From contig JAEEHG010000002.1 in assembly GCA_016280695.1 (NCBI GenBank), positions 1-12,765 of the forward strand: 12,765 bases of DNA, written 5' to 3'. Of this stretch, positions 6,584 to 12,443 are shown in pieces (position 1 is the first letter of the stretch; each line of letters opens with the position of its first letter). Under the pieces are notes generated by a model. The model ran no database searches, had not been told where the DNA came from, and saw only the letters and a list, made by a program, of their open reading frames with translations. Made by a program: the position numbers and the translations under genes. The stretch comes from Solobacterium sp. (GTDB lineage Bacteria; Bacillota_I; Bacilli_A; Erysipelotrichales; Erysipelotrichaceae).

Positions 6584-6955
6584 ATGGATAAAGATGAACT
6601 GATTCTTTTAGTGGAAGACCTGGTCACTGTACCGCACTGCTGCACTGAACTGAAGGAAGCCGGGCAGAAGTGGATCGCCTCAGTCGGCACCCCGGATGAA
6701 AAGGCGGCTGCCGAAAGCCTGATTGCGGAAATCGAGGAAGATATTGTACCGATCGATGACCTGGTGACGTTTGCCGAGTCTGAGAGTGCCCTGCGGGCCT
6801 TCGGGGAAGAGCGGGCAACGGAATTCCGCCTGCACGCCTATGAACTCAAGGCATCCGGCGCGAAATACTGTGACTGCGCGGCCTGCACCAAGGCCCTGCA
6901 TGTGCTGGAGCAGAAGGAAGCGCTGCTGAAGGCTGAACCGGATGAGCAGGCTTGA
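6584..6955 (+). CDS. Small cysteine-rich conserved protein (often mislabelled Hsp90)
   Basis: A 123-residue soluble protein, mostly helical by composition. Cys19-Cys20 lie in PHCC, and Cys96, Cys98 and Cys101 form a CxCxxC in AKYCDCAAC. Together they could hold a metal ion or a redox pair. From memory, Firmicutes proteins of this size and pattern are labelled molecular chaperone Hsp90 in databases. The sequence has no GHKL ATPase, middle or dimerisation region and is far too short, so that name cannot be right as a function. The start ATG 6584 has TAGGAGGT nine bases upstream. The 3' end overlaps the dehydrogenase gene by 14 bases, indicating coupled translation and a possible shared role. 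The true function is unknown. Confidence 0.85.
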   Translation: MDKDELILLVEDLVTVPHCCTELKEAGQKWIASVGTPDEKAAAESLIAEIEEDIVPIDDLVTFAESESALRAFGEERATEFRLHAYELKASGAKYCDCAACTKALHVLEQKEALLKAEPDEQA

Positions 6956-7889
6956 GGTCTGCGTTCTGACGCCGTTTACGGAACGTCAGAAGGAACTTCT
7001 GAAAACTGTGGGCGGGGAAGCCTGCAGCTTTCATTTTGGCCCCGATACGGAAATGCTGAAGGCGGCTGATGTCATCATCGGCAACCCGGATCCGGCTATG
7101 CTGAAAGAGGCAGCTCACCTGCAGTGGCTGCAGCTGACCAGCGCCGGGGCTGATCCGTATGTCAAACCGGGCGTCCTGCCGGAGCAGACAAGACTGACAA
7201 ACGCGTCCGGTGCCTATGGCGTTTCGGTCAGTGACCATATGATGGCGATGACTTATGCGCTGCTGCGGAATTTCAATTACTACAGCCGCCGGCAGAAGGA
7301 ACACCGCTGGCAGCCGGGCGGCGCGGTCCGCAGCATAGAAGAGTGCACGGTGCTGGTGATGGGCCTGGGTGATATCGGCAGCCGGTATGCCCGGCAGATG
7401 AAAGCCCTTGGCGCGAAAGTGCTGGGTATCCGCCGCACCCTGCGTGAACTGCCGCCGTACATTGACGCCCAGTATACGCTTGATGACCTGGCGGATATCG
7501 TCGGCCAGGCGGACATCATTGCCAATGTCCTGCCCGGCGGACCGGCAACCGAACATGTGATCAGCCGGGAAATCATTGCCCGGATGAAGCCGGATGCGGT
7601 ACTGATCAATGCTGGCCGGGGGAATGCGATAGACCCGGCTGCGCTCAAGGAAGCACTGAAGGAAGGGCGGATCGGCGGAGCCGGTCTGGATGTGACGGAA
7701 CCGGAGCCGCTGCCGGCGGATGATGAACTCTGGGACTACGATAATGTCATCATTACCCCGCATGTGGCCGGGCAGTTTTACCTTGCCTCCACACTGGAGC
7801 GGATCACGCAGATCGCCGCCGCAAACCTCGCTGCCTTTACGGCCGGGGAACCCCTGACCCACGTCGTGAATAAAGTTCACGGATACTGA
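6942..7889 (+). CDS. D-isomer-specific 2-hydroxyacid dehydrogenase
   Basis: A 315-residue cytoplasmic NAD(P)H enzyme that interconverts a 2-keto acid and its D-2-hydroxy acid. The NAD-binding loop GLGDIG lies at 141-146, after VLVM. The catalytic set is complete: Arg226 in NAGRGN, Glu255 in TEPEPLP, and His274 in TPHVAG. The Arg-Glu spacing of 29 equals that of SerA. The length of about 315 fits the GhrA/phosphoglycerate-dehydrogenase-like branch without an ACT domain, so it is unlikely to be a classical SerA. After the loop, IRRTLREL at 163-170 has arginines where NADP-preferring members often place them, suggesting but not proving NADPH use. The start ATG 6942 lies inside the preceding gene. 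There is no terminator before guaA. Substrate (glyoxylate, hydroxypyruvate or other) is unknown. Confidence 0.92.
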   Translation: MSRLEVCVLTPFTERQKELLKTVGGEACSFHFGPDTEMLKAADVIIGNPDPAMLKEAAHLQWLQLTSAGADPYVKPGVLPEQTRLTNASGAYGVSVSDHMMAMTYALLRNFNYYSRRQKEHRWQPGGAVRSIEECTVLVMGLGDIGSRYARQMKALGAKVLGIRRTLRELPPYIDAQYTLDDLADIVGQADIIANVLPGGPATEHVISREIIARMKPDAVLINAGRGNAIDPAALKEALKEGRIGGAGLDVTEPEPLPADDELWDYDNVIITPHVAGQFYLASTLERITQIAAANLAAFTAGEPLTHVVNKVHGY

Positions 7890-7951: not shown

Positions 7952-8932
7952 ATGGAAAACAATAAACGTCCGGAAAGCATGGAAAGAATTACGACGCCGG
8001 AACTGGCCCAGGCATTCATTGATGAGCAGGTTGCGGCACTGAAAGCCCAGGTCGGTGACGGCAAGGTACTGCTGGCGCTGTCCGGCGGCGTGGATTCATC
8101 GGTTACCGCGGCTCTGCTGATCAAGGCGATCGGTGAAAACCTGGTGGCAGTGCATGTCAACCACGGCCTGCTCAGAAAAGGCGAGCCGGAACAGGTCATT
8201 GATGTCTTCCGCAACCAGCTGAAAGCAACCCTGATCTATGTGGATGCGGTTGACCGTTTCCTGGATAAACTGGCCGGTGTCGCTGACCCGGAACAGAAGC
8301 GCAAGATCATCGGCGCCGAATTCATCAAGGTGTTTGAGGAAGAAGCCCGCAAGCTGGACGGTATCCATTTCCTGGCCCAGGGCACGATTTACCCGGATAT
8401 CCTGGAAAGCGGCCCGGTCAAGTCACACCACAACGTCGGCGGTCTGCCGGCTGAGATGAACATGGAACTGGTGGAACCGGTCAAGTTCCTGTATAAGGAT
8501 GAAGTCCGCATGGTCGGCAAGCAGCTCGGCCTGCCTGACAGCATGGTCTTCCGGCAGCCGTTCCCGGGCCCGGGCCTGGGTGTGCGCTGTGTCGGTGCCA
8601 TCACCCGTGACCGCCTGGAGGCTGTCCGTGAATCAGATGCCATCCTGCGGGAAGAGTTCGCCAAGAACGGCCTGGAAGGCAAGGTATGGCAGTACTTCAC
8701 AGTTGTGCCGGATTTCAAGTCCACCGGTATTACCGACGGACAGCGGACCTTTGACTGGCCGGTCATCATCAGGGCCGTCAACACCCGTGACGCGGTTACG
8801 GCGACAGTCGAAAATGTCCCGTTCGAACTGCTGGAGCACATCACTGACCGGATTACGCATGAAGTCAAGGGTGTCAACCGGGTCCTGTATGACCTGACCC
8901 CGAAACCGAGCGCGACAATCGAGTACGAATAA
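7952..8932 (+). CDS. guaA: GMP synthetase, ATP-pyrophosphatase subunit without glutaminase domain
   Basis: A 326-residue cytoplasmic enzyme that adenylates XMP and aminates it to GMP, the last step of guanine nucleotide synthesis. The PP-loop SGGVDSS is at 44-50. KSHHNVGGLP (157-166) and QPFPGPGLGVR (202-212) are signature XMP/ATP-site and dimerisation segments, and the C-terminus ends KPSATIEYE as in GuaA. The usual bacterial enzyme has about 510-525 residues, with an N-terminal class I glutamine amidotransferase of about 190. Here that part is absent, and the protein begins with about 36 residues of helix before the PP-loop. The upstream 60 bases carry only a promoter, so this is not a frameshifted remnant: the start ATG 7952 has GGAGG eight bases upstream. 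It resembles the archaeal split type (GuaAb). The ammonia-supplying partner is not in this window. Confidence 0.93.
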   Translation: MENNKRPESMERITTPELAQAFIDEQVAALKAQVGDGKVLLALSGGVDSSVTAALLIKAIGENLVAVHVNHGLLRKGEPEQVIDVFRNQLKATLIYVDAVDRFLDKLAGVADPEQKRKIIGAEFIKVFEEEARKLDGIHFLAQGTIYPDILESGPVKSHHNVGGLPAEMNMELVEPVKFLYKDEVRMVGKQLGLPDSMVFRQPFPGPGLGVRCVGAITRDRLEAVRESDAILREEFAKNGLEGKVWQYFTVVPDFKSTGITDGQRTFDWPVIIRAVNTRDAVTATVENVPFELLEHITDRITHEVKGVNRVLYDLTPKPSATIEYE

Positions 8933-9027
8933 AAATCTGTCCTGCCGGACCCGGATGATTCTGAACTATGGTAACTGAATTATCCTGGGTACCGATGGGA
9001 TATAACCGGCTGATGGATTAATGAATG
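8933..9027. other. Intergenic stretch without recognised content
   Basis: About 95 bases between the guaA stop and its terminator. A GGTAAC/GGTACC region (about 8970-8993) has only short, imperfect complementarity, and no protein start with a ribosome site or known RNA motif was recognised. It is probably the 3' untranslated region of guaA. Confidence 0.5.
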
Positions 9028-9059
9028 AGGCCTTGCAAGAATCATGTGAGGCCTTTTTT
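9028..9059 (+). terminator. Rho-independent terminator after guaA
   Basis: AGGCCTTGCA (9028-9037) pairs with TGTGAGGCCT (9045-9054), ten pairs including two G-U, around a seven-base loop. T-run at 9054-9059. Confidence 0.88.
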
Positions 9060-9091
9060 CTGTTCACAGGCTGCCGGAAATAACGAAAGTA

Positions 9092-9120
9092 TTGGAAACA
9101 GGGCAGGGCTATTGTAGAGT
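9092..9120 (+). promoter_or_regulatory. Promoter of the IscU-like/GGGtGRT unit
   Basis: TTGGAA (9092-9097), a 17-base spacer, then TAGAGT (9115-9120), with four of six matches in each hexamer. It lies just after the guaA terminator and about 50 bases before the start at 9171. No IscR-like site or other repeat was recognised nearby. Confidence 0.55.
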
Positions 9121-9170
9121 TACATTGAACCGCTGGAGCTTATATGCTTGTAAAGGAGGAGAGGTTTCAT

Positions 9171-9872
9171 ATGCAATACACAAAAGAAGTTGAAGAAATG
9201 ATGTGTGTCGCGAAAGGGCCGGACCACGGCCCGGCCCCGATCCCCGAAGAGGGAAAGTGGGTCCAGGCAAAAGAGATCAAGGACATTTCCGGCTACACCC
9301 ACGGAATCGGCTGGTGCGCTCCGCAGCAGGGAGCCTGCAAGCTGAGTCTGAACGTCAAGGACGGCGTGATTCAGGAGGCACTGGTCGAGACGATCGGCTG
9401 TTCCGGAATGACGCATTCCGCAGCCATGGCAAGTGAGATCCTGCCCGGCAAGACCATTCTGGAAGCACTGAACACCGACCTGGTGTGCGACGCGATCAAT
9501 ACCGCCATGCGTGAACTGTTCCTGCAGATTGTATACGGGCGGACCCAGTCCGCTTTCTCTGAGGACGGGCTGCGTATCGGTGCCGGTCTGGAAGATCTCG
9601 GCAAGGGACTCAGATCCATGGTCGGCACAATGTATGGCACTGCCGCAAAGGGAACCAGGTATCTGGAGATGACGGAAGGCTATGTTGTAAAGATGGCGCT
9701 TGATAAGGACGACCAGGTCTGCGGGTATCAGTTCCTCAGCCTCGGCAAGATGATGGATGCGATCAAGGACGGCATGGCACCGAACGAGGCTTATGAGAAG
9801 AATCTCGGCACATACGGCCGCTTTAAGGCGGAAGACGGAGCGGTCAAATGGATCGATCCGCGGAAAGAATAA
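9171..9872 (+). CDS. IscU/NifU-like Fe-S scaffold homologue, divergent cysteines
   Basis: A 233-residue cytoplasmic protein whose residues about 44-110 match the IscU/NifU N-domain pattern: GIGWCAPQQGACKLSL, then VETIGCSGM, then EILPGKTILEAL. By eye, Cys77 aligns with the second ligand Cys of IscU (YGC), but the position of the first (PAC) is Gln52, flanked by Cys49 and Cys56. The third IscU cysteine (HCS) has no counterpart; GLEDLGKGL occupies that area. About 70 extra residues follow, unlike IscU (about 125 residues). It may bind a cluster or metal in a changed site or present it to its partner. The start ATG 9171 has AAAGGAGGAGAGG before it; an in-frame ATG at 9144 lacks a ribosome site. 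The next gene starts 14 bases after its stop, and this pairing with GGGtGRT proteins recurs in related bacteria (from memory). Confidence 0.83.
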   Translation: MQYTKEVEEMMCVAKGPDHGPAPIPEEGKWVQAKEIKDISGYTHGIGWCAPQQGACKLSLNVKDGVIQEALVETIGCSGMTHSAAMASEILPGKTILEALNTDLVCDAINTAMRELFLQIVYGRTQSAFSEDGLRIGAGLEDLGKGLRSMVGTMYGTAAKGTRYLEMTEGYVVKMALDKDDQVCGYQFLSLGKMMDAIKDGMAPNEAYEKNLGTYGRFKAEDGAVKWIDPRKE

Positions 9873-9886
9873 GAGGAGGTGCAGCA

Positions 9887-10906
9887 ATGGCTTTGTTTGA
9901 AAATTATGAAGGACGCATGCCCCAGCTGCAGCCCGTTCTTGACAAATACGGCTTCAAAAGCTTCGAGGATGTGAAGGCATTTACCAACAGCAGGGGTGTT
10001 GATGCGTACAGTATCGTTGAGAGCACCCAGCCGATCTGTTTCGAAAACGTCAAGTGGGCGTATGAACTCGGCGCCGCGATTGCCATGAAGGAAGGCGCTG
10101 TAAAGGCCGCTGACGCCGCCAGATGGATTGGTGTCGGACTGCAGGCATTCTGTATCCCCGGATCTGTCGCTGATCAGCGTCAGGTCGGTATCGGCCACGG
10201 CAATCTCGGCGCGATGCTGCTCGATGAAGAGACCGAATGCTTCGCTTTCCTGGCGGGGCACGAGTCCTTTGCGGCTGCAGAAGGCGCAATCAAGATTGCC
10301 CTGAATGCGAATAAGGTCCGTCAGAAACCCCTCCGCGTCATCCTGAACGGTCTGGGAAAAGATGCGGCGATGATCATCAGCCGCATTAACGGTTTCACCT
10401 ATGTTCAGACCAAATATGATTATCTTTCCGCTGACGTCAGGGAAGATCACGCGCTGACGGTCGTGAACAGGACCGCCTATTCCAATGGCGACCGCGCAAA
10501 AGTCAACTGCTATGGCGCTGACGATGTCCGGGAAGGTGTCGCGATCATGTGGCATGAAGGCGCGGACGTTTCCATTACCGGAAATTCCACCAATCCGACC
10601 CGTTTCCAGCACCCGGTTGCAGGTACCTATAAGAAAGAGCGCTGGGAAGCCGGCAAGAAGTACTTCTCTGTCGCTTCCGGCGGCGGCACGGGCCGCACCC
10701 TGCATCCTGACAACATGGCTGCCGGCCCTGCTTCCTACGGGATGACGGACACGCTTGGCCGTATGCATTCCGACGCGCAGTTCGCCGGTTCCTCCTCTGT
10801 CCCGGCACACGTTGAGATGATGGGTTTCCTTGGCGCCGGCAACAACCCGATGGTCGGTATGACGGTCGCGGTTGCAGTCGCTGTCCAGGAGGCAATGTCC
10901 AGATAA
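9887..10906 (+). CDS. GGGtGRT family protein (PF14057 type), function unknown
   Basis: A 339-residue cytoplasmic protein carrying GGGTGRT at 265-271, followed by LHPDN, the motif that names the Pfam family GGGtGRT protein. Other likely conserved segments are QPICFENVKWAYELG (48-62), GIGHGNLGAMLL (101-112), LNGLGKDA (153-160), NSTNPTRFQHPVAGTY (233-248) and HSDAQFAGSSSVPAHVEMMG (294-313). The Gly-rich loops and many conserved His, Asp and Arg suggest a ligand- or nucleotide-binding enzyme rather than a structural protein. Cysteines are at 51, 89, 118 and 208. No signal peptide or membrane helix. The start ATG 9887 has AAGAGGAGGTG just upstream; an earlier in-frame ATG at 9848 lies inside the preceding gene without such a site. 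It forms a two-gene unit with the IscU-like protein. No biochemical role is known to me. Confidence 0.92.
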   Translation: MALFENYEGRMPQLQPVLDKYGFKSFEDVKAFTNSRGVDAYSIVESTQPICFENVKWAYELGAAIAMKEGAVKAADAARWIGVGLQAFCIPGSVADQRQVGIGHGNLGAMLLDEETECFAFLAGHESFAAAEGAIKIALNANKVRQKPLRVILNGLGKDAAMIISRINGFTYVQTKYDYLSADVREDHALTVVNRTAYSNGDRAKVNCYGADDVREGVAIMWHEGADVSITGNSTNPTRFQHPVAGTYKKERWEAGKKYFSVASGGGTGRTLHPDNMAAGPASYGMTDTLGRMHSDAQFAGSSSVPAHVEMMGFLGAGNNPMVGMTVAVAVAVQEAMSR

Positions 10907-10917
10907 ACAGACAGGAT

Positions 10918-10947
10918 CCGGATGGATACCGGTCTGCGCCCATCCGG
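10918..10947 (+). repeat. Inverted repeat (hairpin) ahead of the terminator
   Basis: CCGGATGG (10918-10925) pairs perfectly with CCATCCGG (10940-10947) around a 14-base loop that contains ACCGGT. There is no T-run, so it is not itself a terminator. It lies in the 3' untranslated region of the GGGtGRT gene and might stabilise the transcript or act as a protein site. Confidence 0.55.
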
Positions 10948-10967
10948 GACAGATATTGGGAAGATAC

Positions 10968-10997
10968 AAAAAGGGACTTCACACGGGGTCCCTTTTT
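10968..10997 (+). terminator. Rho-independent terminator after the GGGtGRT gene
   Basis: AAAAAGGGAC (10968-10977) pairs with GTCCCTTTTT (10988-10997) around a ten-base loop, and the T-run forms part of the stem. The A-run on the left makes it potentially active on both strands. Confidence 0.88.
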
Positions 10998-11052
10998 CCC
11001 TGCCGCCGGCAGAGAACAGGAAACCGCATATTGAAACACCTGCTGATGCCGT

Positions 11053-11091
11053 TATCTGCAGTGCCATTCCGGCTTTTATCTATTGCAGATA
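11053..11091. promoter_or_regulatory. Inverted repeat upstream of larA-type gene, possible operator
   Basis: TATCTGCA (11053-11060) and TGCAGATA (11084-11091) are perfect 8-base arms separated by 23 bases. The right arm overlaps the expected -35 position of the putative promoter at 11108-11116. This arrangement would suit a repressor or a Crp/Fnr-type factor binding two half-sites. The role is inference. Confidence 0.4.
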
Positions 11092-11107
11092 CTGTAAAGG
11101 TGAATGA

Positions 11108-11116
11108 TGATATGAT
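11108..11116 (+). promoter_or_regulatory. Putative extended -10 promoter of the LarA gene
   Basis: TGaTATGAT is an extended -10 with five of six matches. The -35 (about 11088-11093, GATACT) is poor, suggesting that an activator or the TG extension compensates. It would give a leader of about 45 bases before the ATG at 11169. Confidence 0.45.
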
Positions 11117-11168
11117 GATAAAAAAGAGAAACACCTGACACGATAAAAACAGGAGAAGGAGAAGAAGT

Positions 11169-12443
11169 ATGCTGTCGCTTCCATATGGTGAGAAAAGACT
11201 GGAATTTGAAATCCCGGAAGGCCATCCGGTGACTGTCCTGCAGGGTAAACTGGAGTCTTATGTGCCGCCTCTGGCGGAAGAGGAACTGGTGCTGGCGGCC
11301 ATGAATGCCCCGGTCGGCAGTGAAAAACTGTCCGAACTGGCAAAGGGCAAACGGAACGTCGTGCTGATCTGCAGCGATCATACCCGGCCTGTTCCCAGCC
11401 GGTTGATCGTCCCGCATATGCTGAAGGAGATCCGGGAAGGGGCACCCGATGCGGATATTACCATCCTGATCGCGACCGGCTGTCACCGCCTGACCACAAC
11501 AGCAGAGCTGGAAGCCAAATTCGGACCGGATATTTACCGGAATGAGAAGATCGTGATCCATGACTGTGAAGACGAGGAGAACCTGGTCAGGATCGGGACA
11601 CTTCCTTCCGGCGGCGACCTGATCATCAACAGGCTCGTCGTGGAAGCTGACCTTGTCTGCGCGGAAGGGTTTATCGAACCGCATTTCTTCGCGGGATTCT
11701 CCGGCGGCCGGAAGAGCATCCTGCCCGGTGTGGCATCACGAGTGTGTGTCCATTACAATCACAATGCGGAGTTTATTGATGATCCGCACGCCCGGATGGG
11801 GATTCTGGACGGCAACCCGATCCACCGGGATATGATCTTTGCGGCGCGGGAAGCGAAGCTCGCTTATATCGTCAATGTTGTCCTGAACGCGGACAAGAAG
11901 GTCGTTGCGGCATATGCAGGCGATGCGGACGCAGCCCATCTTGCCGGGTGTGAGTTTGTCAAAGACCAGATGGGCTGCCGGGCGGTACCGGGTGATATCG
12001 TGATCACGACCAATAACGGTTATCCGCTGGACCAGAATGTGTACCAGATGGTAAAAGGCATGTGCACGGCGGAAGCCACCTGTGCCGAGGGCAGCGTCAT
12101 CATCGCGGCCGGGGAATGCCGGGACGGGATCGGCGGTGACGGCTTCTATAAGACATTTAAAGAATGCACGGATATCAGCGCGCTGCTGAAGGAATTCCGG
12201 GCGACGCCGAAAGAGGAAACAATTCTTGACCAGTGGCAGTCCCAGATCTTTGCGCGGATCCTGGAGAAGCATAAGGTCATCTTCGTCAGCGGGACAGATG
12301 ATGACATTGTCAGGGATTTCCATATGATTCCTGCCCACAGCATGCCGGAGGCCCTGGCAATTGCCGAAGGCCTCATCGGTAAAAAAGACTATTCTGTCAC
12401 TGTCCTGCCGGAAGGGATCTCGGTAATCCCGCTGGGTGAATAA
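11169..12443 (+). CDS. larA: Nickel-pincer lactate racemase LarA homologue
   Basis: A 424-residue cytoplasmic enzyme of the LarA (DUF2088) family, which racemises 2-hydroxy acids, in the type case D- and L-lactate, using a nickel-pincer nucleotide tethered to lysine. Numbering follows Lactiplantibacillus LarA with a constant offset of -2: Asp70 and Arg73 in SDHTRP, His106 in ATGCHR, His172 in EPHFFAGF, tether Lys182 in GGRKS, nickel-ligand His198 in YNHNA, and Tyr292, Gln293 and Lys296 in VYQMVK. This agreement makes an active enzyme of the lactate-racemase type likely, though homologues act on other 2-hydroxy acids. The start ATG 11169 follows GGAGAAGGAGAAGA. The cofactor enzymes LarB, LarC and LarE and a nickel or lactate transporter are not in this window. 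It has its own promoter and terminator. Confidence 0.92.
   Translation: MLSLPYGEKRLEFEIPEGHPVTVLQGKLESYVPPLAEEELVLAAMNAPVGSEKLSELAKGKRNVVLICSDHTRPVPSRLIVPHMLKEIREGAPDADITILIATGCHRLTTTAELEAKFGPDIYRNEKIVIHDCEDEENLVRIGTLPSGGDLIINRLVVEADLVCAEGFIEPHFFAGFSGGRKSILPGVASRVCVHYNHNAEFIDDPHARMGILDGNPIHRDMIFAAREAKLAYIVNVVLNADKKVVAAYAGDADAAHLAGCEFVKDQMGCRAVPGDIVITTNNGYPLDQNVYQMVKGMCTAEATCAEGSVIIAAGECRDGIGGDGFYKTFKECTDISALLKEFRATPKEETILDQWQSQIFARILEKHKVIFVSGTDDDIVRDFHMIPAHSMPEALAIAEGLIGKKDYSVTVLPEGISVIPLGE

Follow-up and report, generated by a model that had tools for sequence, protein, structure and literature searches.

The window analysed here, a whole stretch of 12,765 nucleotides from a Solobacterium sp. 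genome (C286:1-12765), carries two adjacent genes on the forward strand, the first encoding an IscU-derived protein of 233 residues (S, 9171..9872), the second a GGGtGRT protein of 339 residues (G, 9887..10906). That S and G are an obligate pair, and a self-contained module, is strongly supported. We give an even chance to the further reading that they are two subunits of one iron-sulfur (Fe-S) protein complex, most likely an enzyme. The data that this analysis brings to the reading are the obligate pairing, the fixed gene order, the natural fusions, the fold of S, which is that of IscU, its altered motifs, and the pattern of invariant residues.

In 299 genomes from the phylum of a Clostridium locus, G was searched for with PF14057 (E 0.001) and S, in an independent search, with its own profile (E 1e-8). 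Each protein was detected in 19 genomes, and the two sets coincide; the centre genome of the survey, picked for having the pair, is counted among them. G has not been found without S, which is new here. The PF14057 survey identified the family in 5 of 149 genomes in the phylum of the window, in 3 of 247 in that of a Bacteroides fluxus locus, and in 3 of 118 in that of a Syntrophorhabdus locus, centre genomes included. In the phylum of a Photobacterium locus 7 of 249 genomes score over the cut-off; of the 8 found at E 0.001 one is a threonine synthase. Pairing of S with G is present, above chance, in every phylum surveyed.

Gene order is as constant as co-occurrence, and bears out the adjacency expected in the original prediction. 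Of 121 loci with G, 118 have S immediately 5' of it in the same orientation. By set, the figures are 82 of 85 loci (window included), 23 of 24, 10 of 11 and, in a plasmid collection in which 10 records matched, 3 of the 3 records examined. Two loci fall outside the 121, one being a threonine synthase and the other (L109) holding a 3' fragment of G only, and four genomes are counted twice (L014/L086, L048/L107, L069/L110, L076/L113). The three loci with no S, L013, L041 and L054, start inside G or 120 bases ahead of it. A set of 80 loci in this survey comprises the top-scoring 80 out of at least 583 matches, and is biased to close relatives. One of the 19 genomes, G348, hosts two of each gene, as two complete pairs (C94 = L105, C211 = L101), one of them divergent, the G proteins being about 60% identical.

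S and G also occur as single proteins. A search with P0074, a single open reading frame (ORF) that includes both parts but lacks a piece where they meet, retrieved many ORFs of this type, and both CAPQQG, a motif of S, and GGGxGRT, a motif of G, are present in 89 of 93 newly listed proteins. Most of them look like two-gene forms altered by deletion, frameshift or stop loss, and some may reflect sequencing errors. P0327, P0328 and P0331 share a common fusion of 582 residues with a related linker, and comprise 2, 1 and 3 member sequences found on 4, 1 and 2 contigs, the longest of 248 kb. Of 172 residues invariant in the two-gene form, they keep 167, 166 and 166, respectively. We take them as a real fused lineage, which speaks well for S and G functioning as a single unit. 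Groups of mutually similar single-ORF proteins (P0284-P0287, P0290-P0291, P0293, P0295) vary at the position expected to end S, which would fit a stop codon repeatedly lost, or misread in assembly.

S is a reshaped IscU protein. The original prediction described a recognisable Fe-S scaffold core with an extension. The core is there, flanked on both sides by long extensions, and is weak: residues 56-113 match Pfam NifU_N (PF01592) with 20.1 bits, below the 22-bit cut-off, and scores against TIGR03419 (25.8 bits, cut-off 187.9) and TIGR01999 (21.4 bits, cut-off 192.4) are far lower than required. Structural comparison of the predicted model assigns S the IscU fold. Three cysteines are invariant in 104 of 104 S proteins. 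In the HMMER alignment C49 (9315..9317, in CAPQQG) precedes the position of the first IscU cysteine by four residues, C77 (9399..9401, in GCSGMT) aligns with the second IscU cysteine, which we take to be Cys63 in E. coli numbering, and C106 (9486..9488, in NTDLVCDA) lies just before the helix spanning residues 107-122 in the model. C106 is plausibly the equivalent of the third IscU cysteine, and may replace it. Ordinary IscU works with its partners through the motifs [NP]xCGD, which includes the first ligand cysteine, and LPxxKxHC, which includes the third. Neither is present in any of 76 S proteins, all of which carry CAPQQG, whereas LPxxKxHC is present in 8 of 10 IscU/SufU proteins from pair-bearing genomes. 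S thus departs from the IscU/NifU scaffold (PF01592) in its sub-threshold score, in the missing motifs, in its additional N- and C-terminal parts, in not having been found without G in the 299 genomes and in its reported decrease when iron is lacking. It differs also from SufU, a zinc-dependent sulfur transfer protein, because SufU sits with suf genes and S with G, and some hosts have both.

G, assigned to the GGGtGRT family in the original prediction, proved to be a full-length member of PF14057 (611.4 bits, cut-off 27; profile positions 1-327 of 327), a named family with no assigned function. Its AlphaFold model (predicted local distance difference test, pLDDT, 83.4; predicted template modelling score, pTM, 0.87) combines a helical N-terminal region with a Rossmann-like domain whose conserved loops come after the strands; the GGGTGRT motif (residues 265-271, 10679..10699) lies in the loop that follows strand 260-263. 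Apart from the N-terminus, the model is least confident at residues 235-238 and 282-303, both highly conserved stretches, as if these needed a partner or a ligand. Across 110 sequences from many phyla 111 of the 339 residues are invariant, and no cysteine is among them.

No convincing fold relative was retrieved in searches with the G model, and two candidate kinships were dismissed on profile comparison. A threonine synthase (G897) matches PF14057 with 19.9 bits, under the cut-off, and tblastn aligned SGGGTGR of G to GNAGNIT of threonine synthase, presumably the phosphate loop for pyridoxal phosphate (PLP). The link was rejected as due to chance because the hhalign scores of G against PLP fold type II proteins (13.7 with 22 PALP sequences, 19.2 with 2 threonine-synthase-like sequences, 23.2 for the best single one) fall inside a null distribution of 120 unrelated ORFs, with a maximum of 24.7. 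CO dehydrogenase/prismane (PF03063) is the second Foldseek row for the G model (E 0.072, probability 0.35, TM 0.23, rmsd 19.1); it was rejected by sequence, the hhalign scores being 23.1 with 8 sequences and 20.4 for the best single one, against the same null maximum, while a kinship at the level of fold is possible.

The 3' end of G (10730-10906 in the window) resembles a site at which mobile elements integrate. In Bacteroides fluxus (G150:C13:145670-169347; L187, L188) an integrase-like gene lies behind an intact G, and a 178-nucleotide copy of the G 3' end, 168 of 178 positions identical, is found about 24 kb further on. Among 13 loci on 12 viral contigs (L121-L133), 11 carry an integrase-like ORF beside the G end or its copy. 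These ORFs are of three apparent types, in hosts that are Bacteroidota-like or Clostridia-like; Pfam confirms a phage integrase for five of the 400-residue type, and the remaining ones were recognized by motif pattern. One viral contig (L126, L132) may carry two such elements in tandem.

Several published reports bear on iron response and expression. Both proteins are higher with iron in Clostridium pasteurianum (PMC5395762). In iron-starved Bacteroides thetaiotaomicron BT0173-74 is down 11 to 12.8-fold, and a table of iron-dependent genes gives the two genes a joint row (PMC10434189). GGGtGRT is highly expressed, by unrelated taxa, in the chicken caecum (PMC11204068), and both names, from different species, are among proteins falling after feeding in the rumen (PMC7035244). 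The codon bias of S and G joined exceeds the median of neighbouring ORFs, taken singly, in all 52 loci, out of 80, with at least 5 neighbours of 200 residues, and is the strongest in 39. GGGtGRT is also mentioned where a paper discusses putative virulence factors in Clostridium innocuum (PMC9942572). The protein occurs as well in Geobacter, Syntrophorhabdus and numerous commensals, which speaks against a role in virulence.

Taken together, several features favor one Fe-S complex with S as the cluster subunit: S and G are constantly paired and in one lineage fused, S has lost the scaffold motifs but retained three cysteines, G is rich in ligand-type residues, none an invariant cysteine, and the pair responds to iron. 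We infer cluster binding, direct contact of S and G, and catalysis, as well as the steps from a cluster to a reaction. In the model proposed, S would have turned from a scaffold passing clusters on into a permanent cluster-bearing subunit, keeping the IscU fold. C49, C77 and C106 would hold the cluster through three protein ligands, leaving one iron site free. G would be the ligand- and substrate-binding half, with a Rossmann-like domain exposing the loops NGLGKD, TGNxTN and SGGGTGR after its strands and offering invariant His, Asp, Lys and Arg, and the free cluster site of S would face the G loops SGGGTGRT, TGNSTNP and RMHSDAQFAGSSS. Aconitase-type enzymes carry a site-differentiated three-cysteine cluster; the likeness, three invariant cysteines in S plus a separate ligand-binding part, is limited to a comparison of how they may work and does not extend to sequence or fold.

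Several observations weigh against this reading. The fold of tethered S and G, obtained for P0074 with P0090 and 15 S and 15 G relatives, is of low confidence (pLDDT 68.7, pTM 0.58), and the S-G interface expected in the original prediction did not emerge in a trustworthy form. In the S part of this model the match to IscU is clear with VIA-align and weak with Foldseek, where the best IscU row has E 0.13 and probability 0.94. We can only infer the three-cysteine site, because the MAFFT alignment does not place C106 opposite the third IscU cysteine. Three cysteines of G are nearly invariant (C118 in 108, C208 in 107 and C89 in 104 of 110 sequences), and a cluster on G is therefore still possible. 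In the window, exceptionally, codon bias is weaker in S (46.3) and G (43.9) than in the seven other genes measured (36.4-42.1). Enzymes often have adjoining pathway genes, and none recur beside S and G: clustering of 934 ORFs from 80 loci (45 largest clusters) revealed no widely recurrent family besides S and G, two larger clusters being, by position, antisense frames of G and S and the rest occurring in at most 8 loci. Finally, a suf neighbourhood found in Collinsella, described below, would suit an assembly role as well.

Among the other explanations, an iron or Fe-S cluster reserve survives best, though we judge it unlikely. The pair would be a buffer, abundant in iron-replete cells and switched off when iron is scarce, with G as a release or packing partner. 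The reported increase with iron in two phyla, a codon bias that in 52 of 52 loci is of the kind typical of high expression, the reported high expression in the chicken caecum (PMC11204068), the lack of pathway neighbours and the occurrence both in hosts with IscU-type markers and in those with SufB/D-type ones are all in line with it. Against it stand the 111 invariant residues of G, located in loops resembling ligand sites, a degree of constraint that storage plausibly need not impose.

A dedicated scaffold or carrier, with S building or supplying a cluster or metal for G or, helped by G, for a third protein, is quite improbable. It fits the IscU fold of S, the nearly invariant C118 and C208 of G, and the gene order of Collinsella aerofaciens (L191, NZ_OY725717.1, 216936-229919), where the pair adjoins sufB-sufD-sufS-sufU with a transposase gene in between; at no other locus checked, many of which have only 1-2 kb of flank, are suf genes near the pair. 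Yet the scaffold motifs are missing in 76 of 76 S proteins, the natural fusions fix S and G at 1:1, and C118 is replaced by Ser in two fusions and by Val or Thr in L103 and L104. Moreover, no S without G has been identified in 299 genomes, though a general carrier should serve other proteins too. Nor is the pair the Fe-S factory of the cell. All 38 hosts tested among 43 pair-bearing genomes (G152, G154, G157, G158 and G381 were left out) have a marker of another Fe-S assembly system, one marker not amounting to a whole system: 25 a SufB/D-type match, single in six, and the remaining 13 a strong IscU/NifU match. S is the sole NifU_N match in the genome of the window, in B. fluxus and in G155, G405, G686 and G694, and G765 has no NifU_N match at E 0.001. 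The original prediction had envisaged either delivery of a cluster or metal to G or one enzyme made of both proteins; one enzyme or complex fits better, and delivery less well, because G lacks an invariant cysteine, S lacks the IscU partner motifs and all 38 hosts have other Fe-S markers. That S binds zinc as SufU does with the same fold, the pair being a zinc-dependent or sulfur-transfer enzyme with no Fe-S cluster, is very unlikely, both proteins being reportedly lower in two phyla when iron is lacking.

Going back to one Fe-S complex, a bolder version is that the pair is a new kind of two-part Fe-S enzyme, fused in one lineage, in which a captured IscU scaffold acts as the permanent catalytic cluster subunit and the G half comes from a family with no known relatives, catalyzing an undescribed reaction common and abundant in gut and sediment anaerobes. 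This is possible, with the balance somewhat against it. The original prediction of an undescribed system holds in that no study of what the pair does biochemically, BT0173/BT0174 included, was found in the accessible part of the open-licence literature; it has to be tempered since PF14057 was already named, and the two genes already share a table row in PMC10434189.

S proteins share a median pairwise identity of 0.765 and G proteins one of 0.78 (75 pairs, many phyla). The two distance matrices correlate (0.654; none of 1000 permutations as high), a figure that still includes common descent of the hosts. In a FastTree tree built from 74 concatenated pairs, 5 with no phylum label, there are 10 phylum changes, the minimum possible being 8, and Bacillota alone needs 7. 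Data are consistent with mostly vertical descent, plus some transfers of the whole pair. Third codon positions are 0.53-0.59 identical, whereas protein identity is 0.91-0.96 (L006 to L009). On a recent transfer of the pair into the Solobacterium genome the evidence is divided. Absence from 11 listed genomes of the same family, one of the same genus, speaks for it; the GC content (0.555 in the window, 0.515-0.581 in 9 readable sampled contigs of the genome) and the codon usage, correlated with that of other window genes (0.89 for S, 0.81 for G), speak against.

The genome hosting the window is incomplete (77% complete, 3.3% contamination, 291 contigs). S runs from ATG at 9171-9173 to TAA at 9870-9872, and is preceded by the ribosome site AAAGGAGG (9152-9159). 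A 14-base gap (9873-9886) includes the ribosome site of G, GAGGAGGTG; G starts with ATG at 9887-9889 and stops at 10904-10906. The ORFs, the gap and the two ribosome sites are thus as originally described, and so is a terminator, a hairpin 3' of G on the forward strand with T's after it. Its paired bases span 10968-10997, and its folding energy of -17 kcal/mol (z -3.04) is equalled by 1 of 200 shuffles. A terminator-like hairpin of 11 pairs with a T run lies on the forward strand between guaA and S (9027-9055); the scan gave 3 sites versus 2.3 (sd 1.4) in shuffles, a count at chance level, this hairpin included. The promoter claimed for the unit did not materialize, a sigma-70 consensus scan over 8900-11250 finding no site (shuffles 1.4). 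The self-contained module holds all the same, by virtue of the same 19 of 299 genomes, constant order, no widely recurrent neighbour and the fused lineage. No Rfam family scores above the gathering score anywhere in the window; at 15 related loci the matches were limited to three tRNAs and a ZTP riboswitch on the opposite strand, away from the pair. Leaders of Erysipelotrichia and Clostridium pairs align poorly; upstream stretches were inspected by eye for an iron-regulator motif, no motif search being made, and no shared motif is claimed.

The guaA ORF 5' of the pair (7952-8932, 326 residues) lacks the glutaminase half, its match to the GMP synthase model (512 positions) being confined to positions 197-512. 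The order guaA, S, G recurs at L031, where GuaA is 82.5% identical. A likely D-2-hydroxyacid dehydrogenase (Pfam 2-Hacid_dh_C, 6942-7889) lies upstream of guaA, and LarA, the nickel-dependent lactate racemase (603.9 bits, cut-off 460), is encoded downstream of the pair at 11169-12443.

No reaction has yet been assigned to a protein that published reports describe as highly expressed by gut anaerobes, and as more abundant when iron is present. The genomic pairing implies that S and G need to be studied jointly, and either protein expressed alone may well be inactive. If the favored reading is true, the pair would be a clear case of an Fe-S scaffold turned enzyme subunit. Many anaerobic bacteria carry S and G, which are very probably two halves of one iron-dependent machine.
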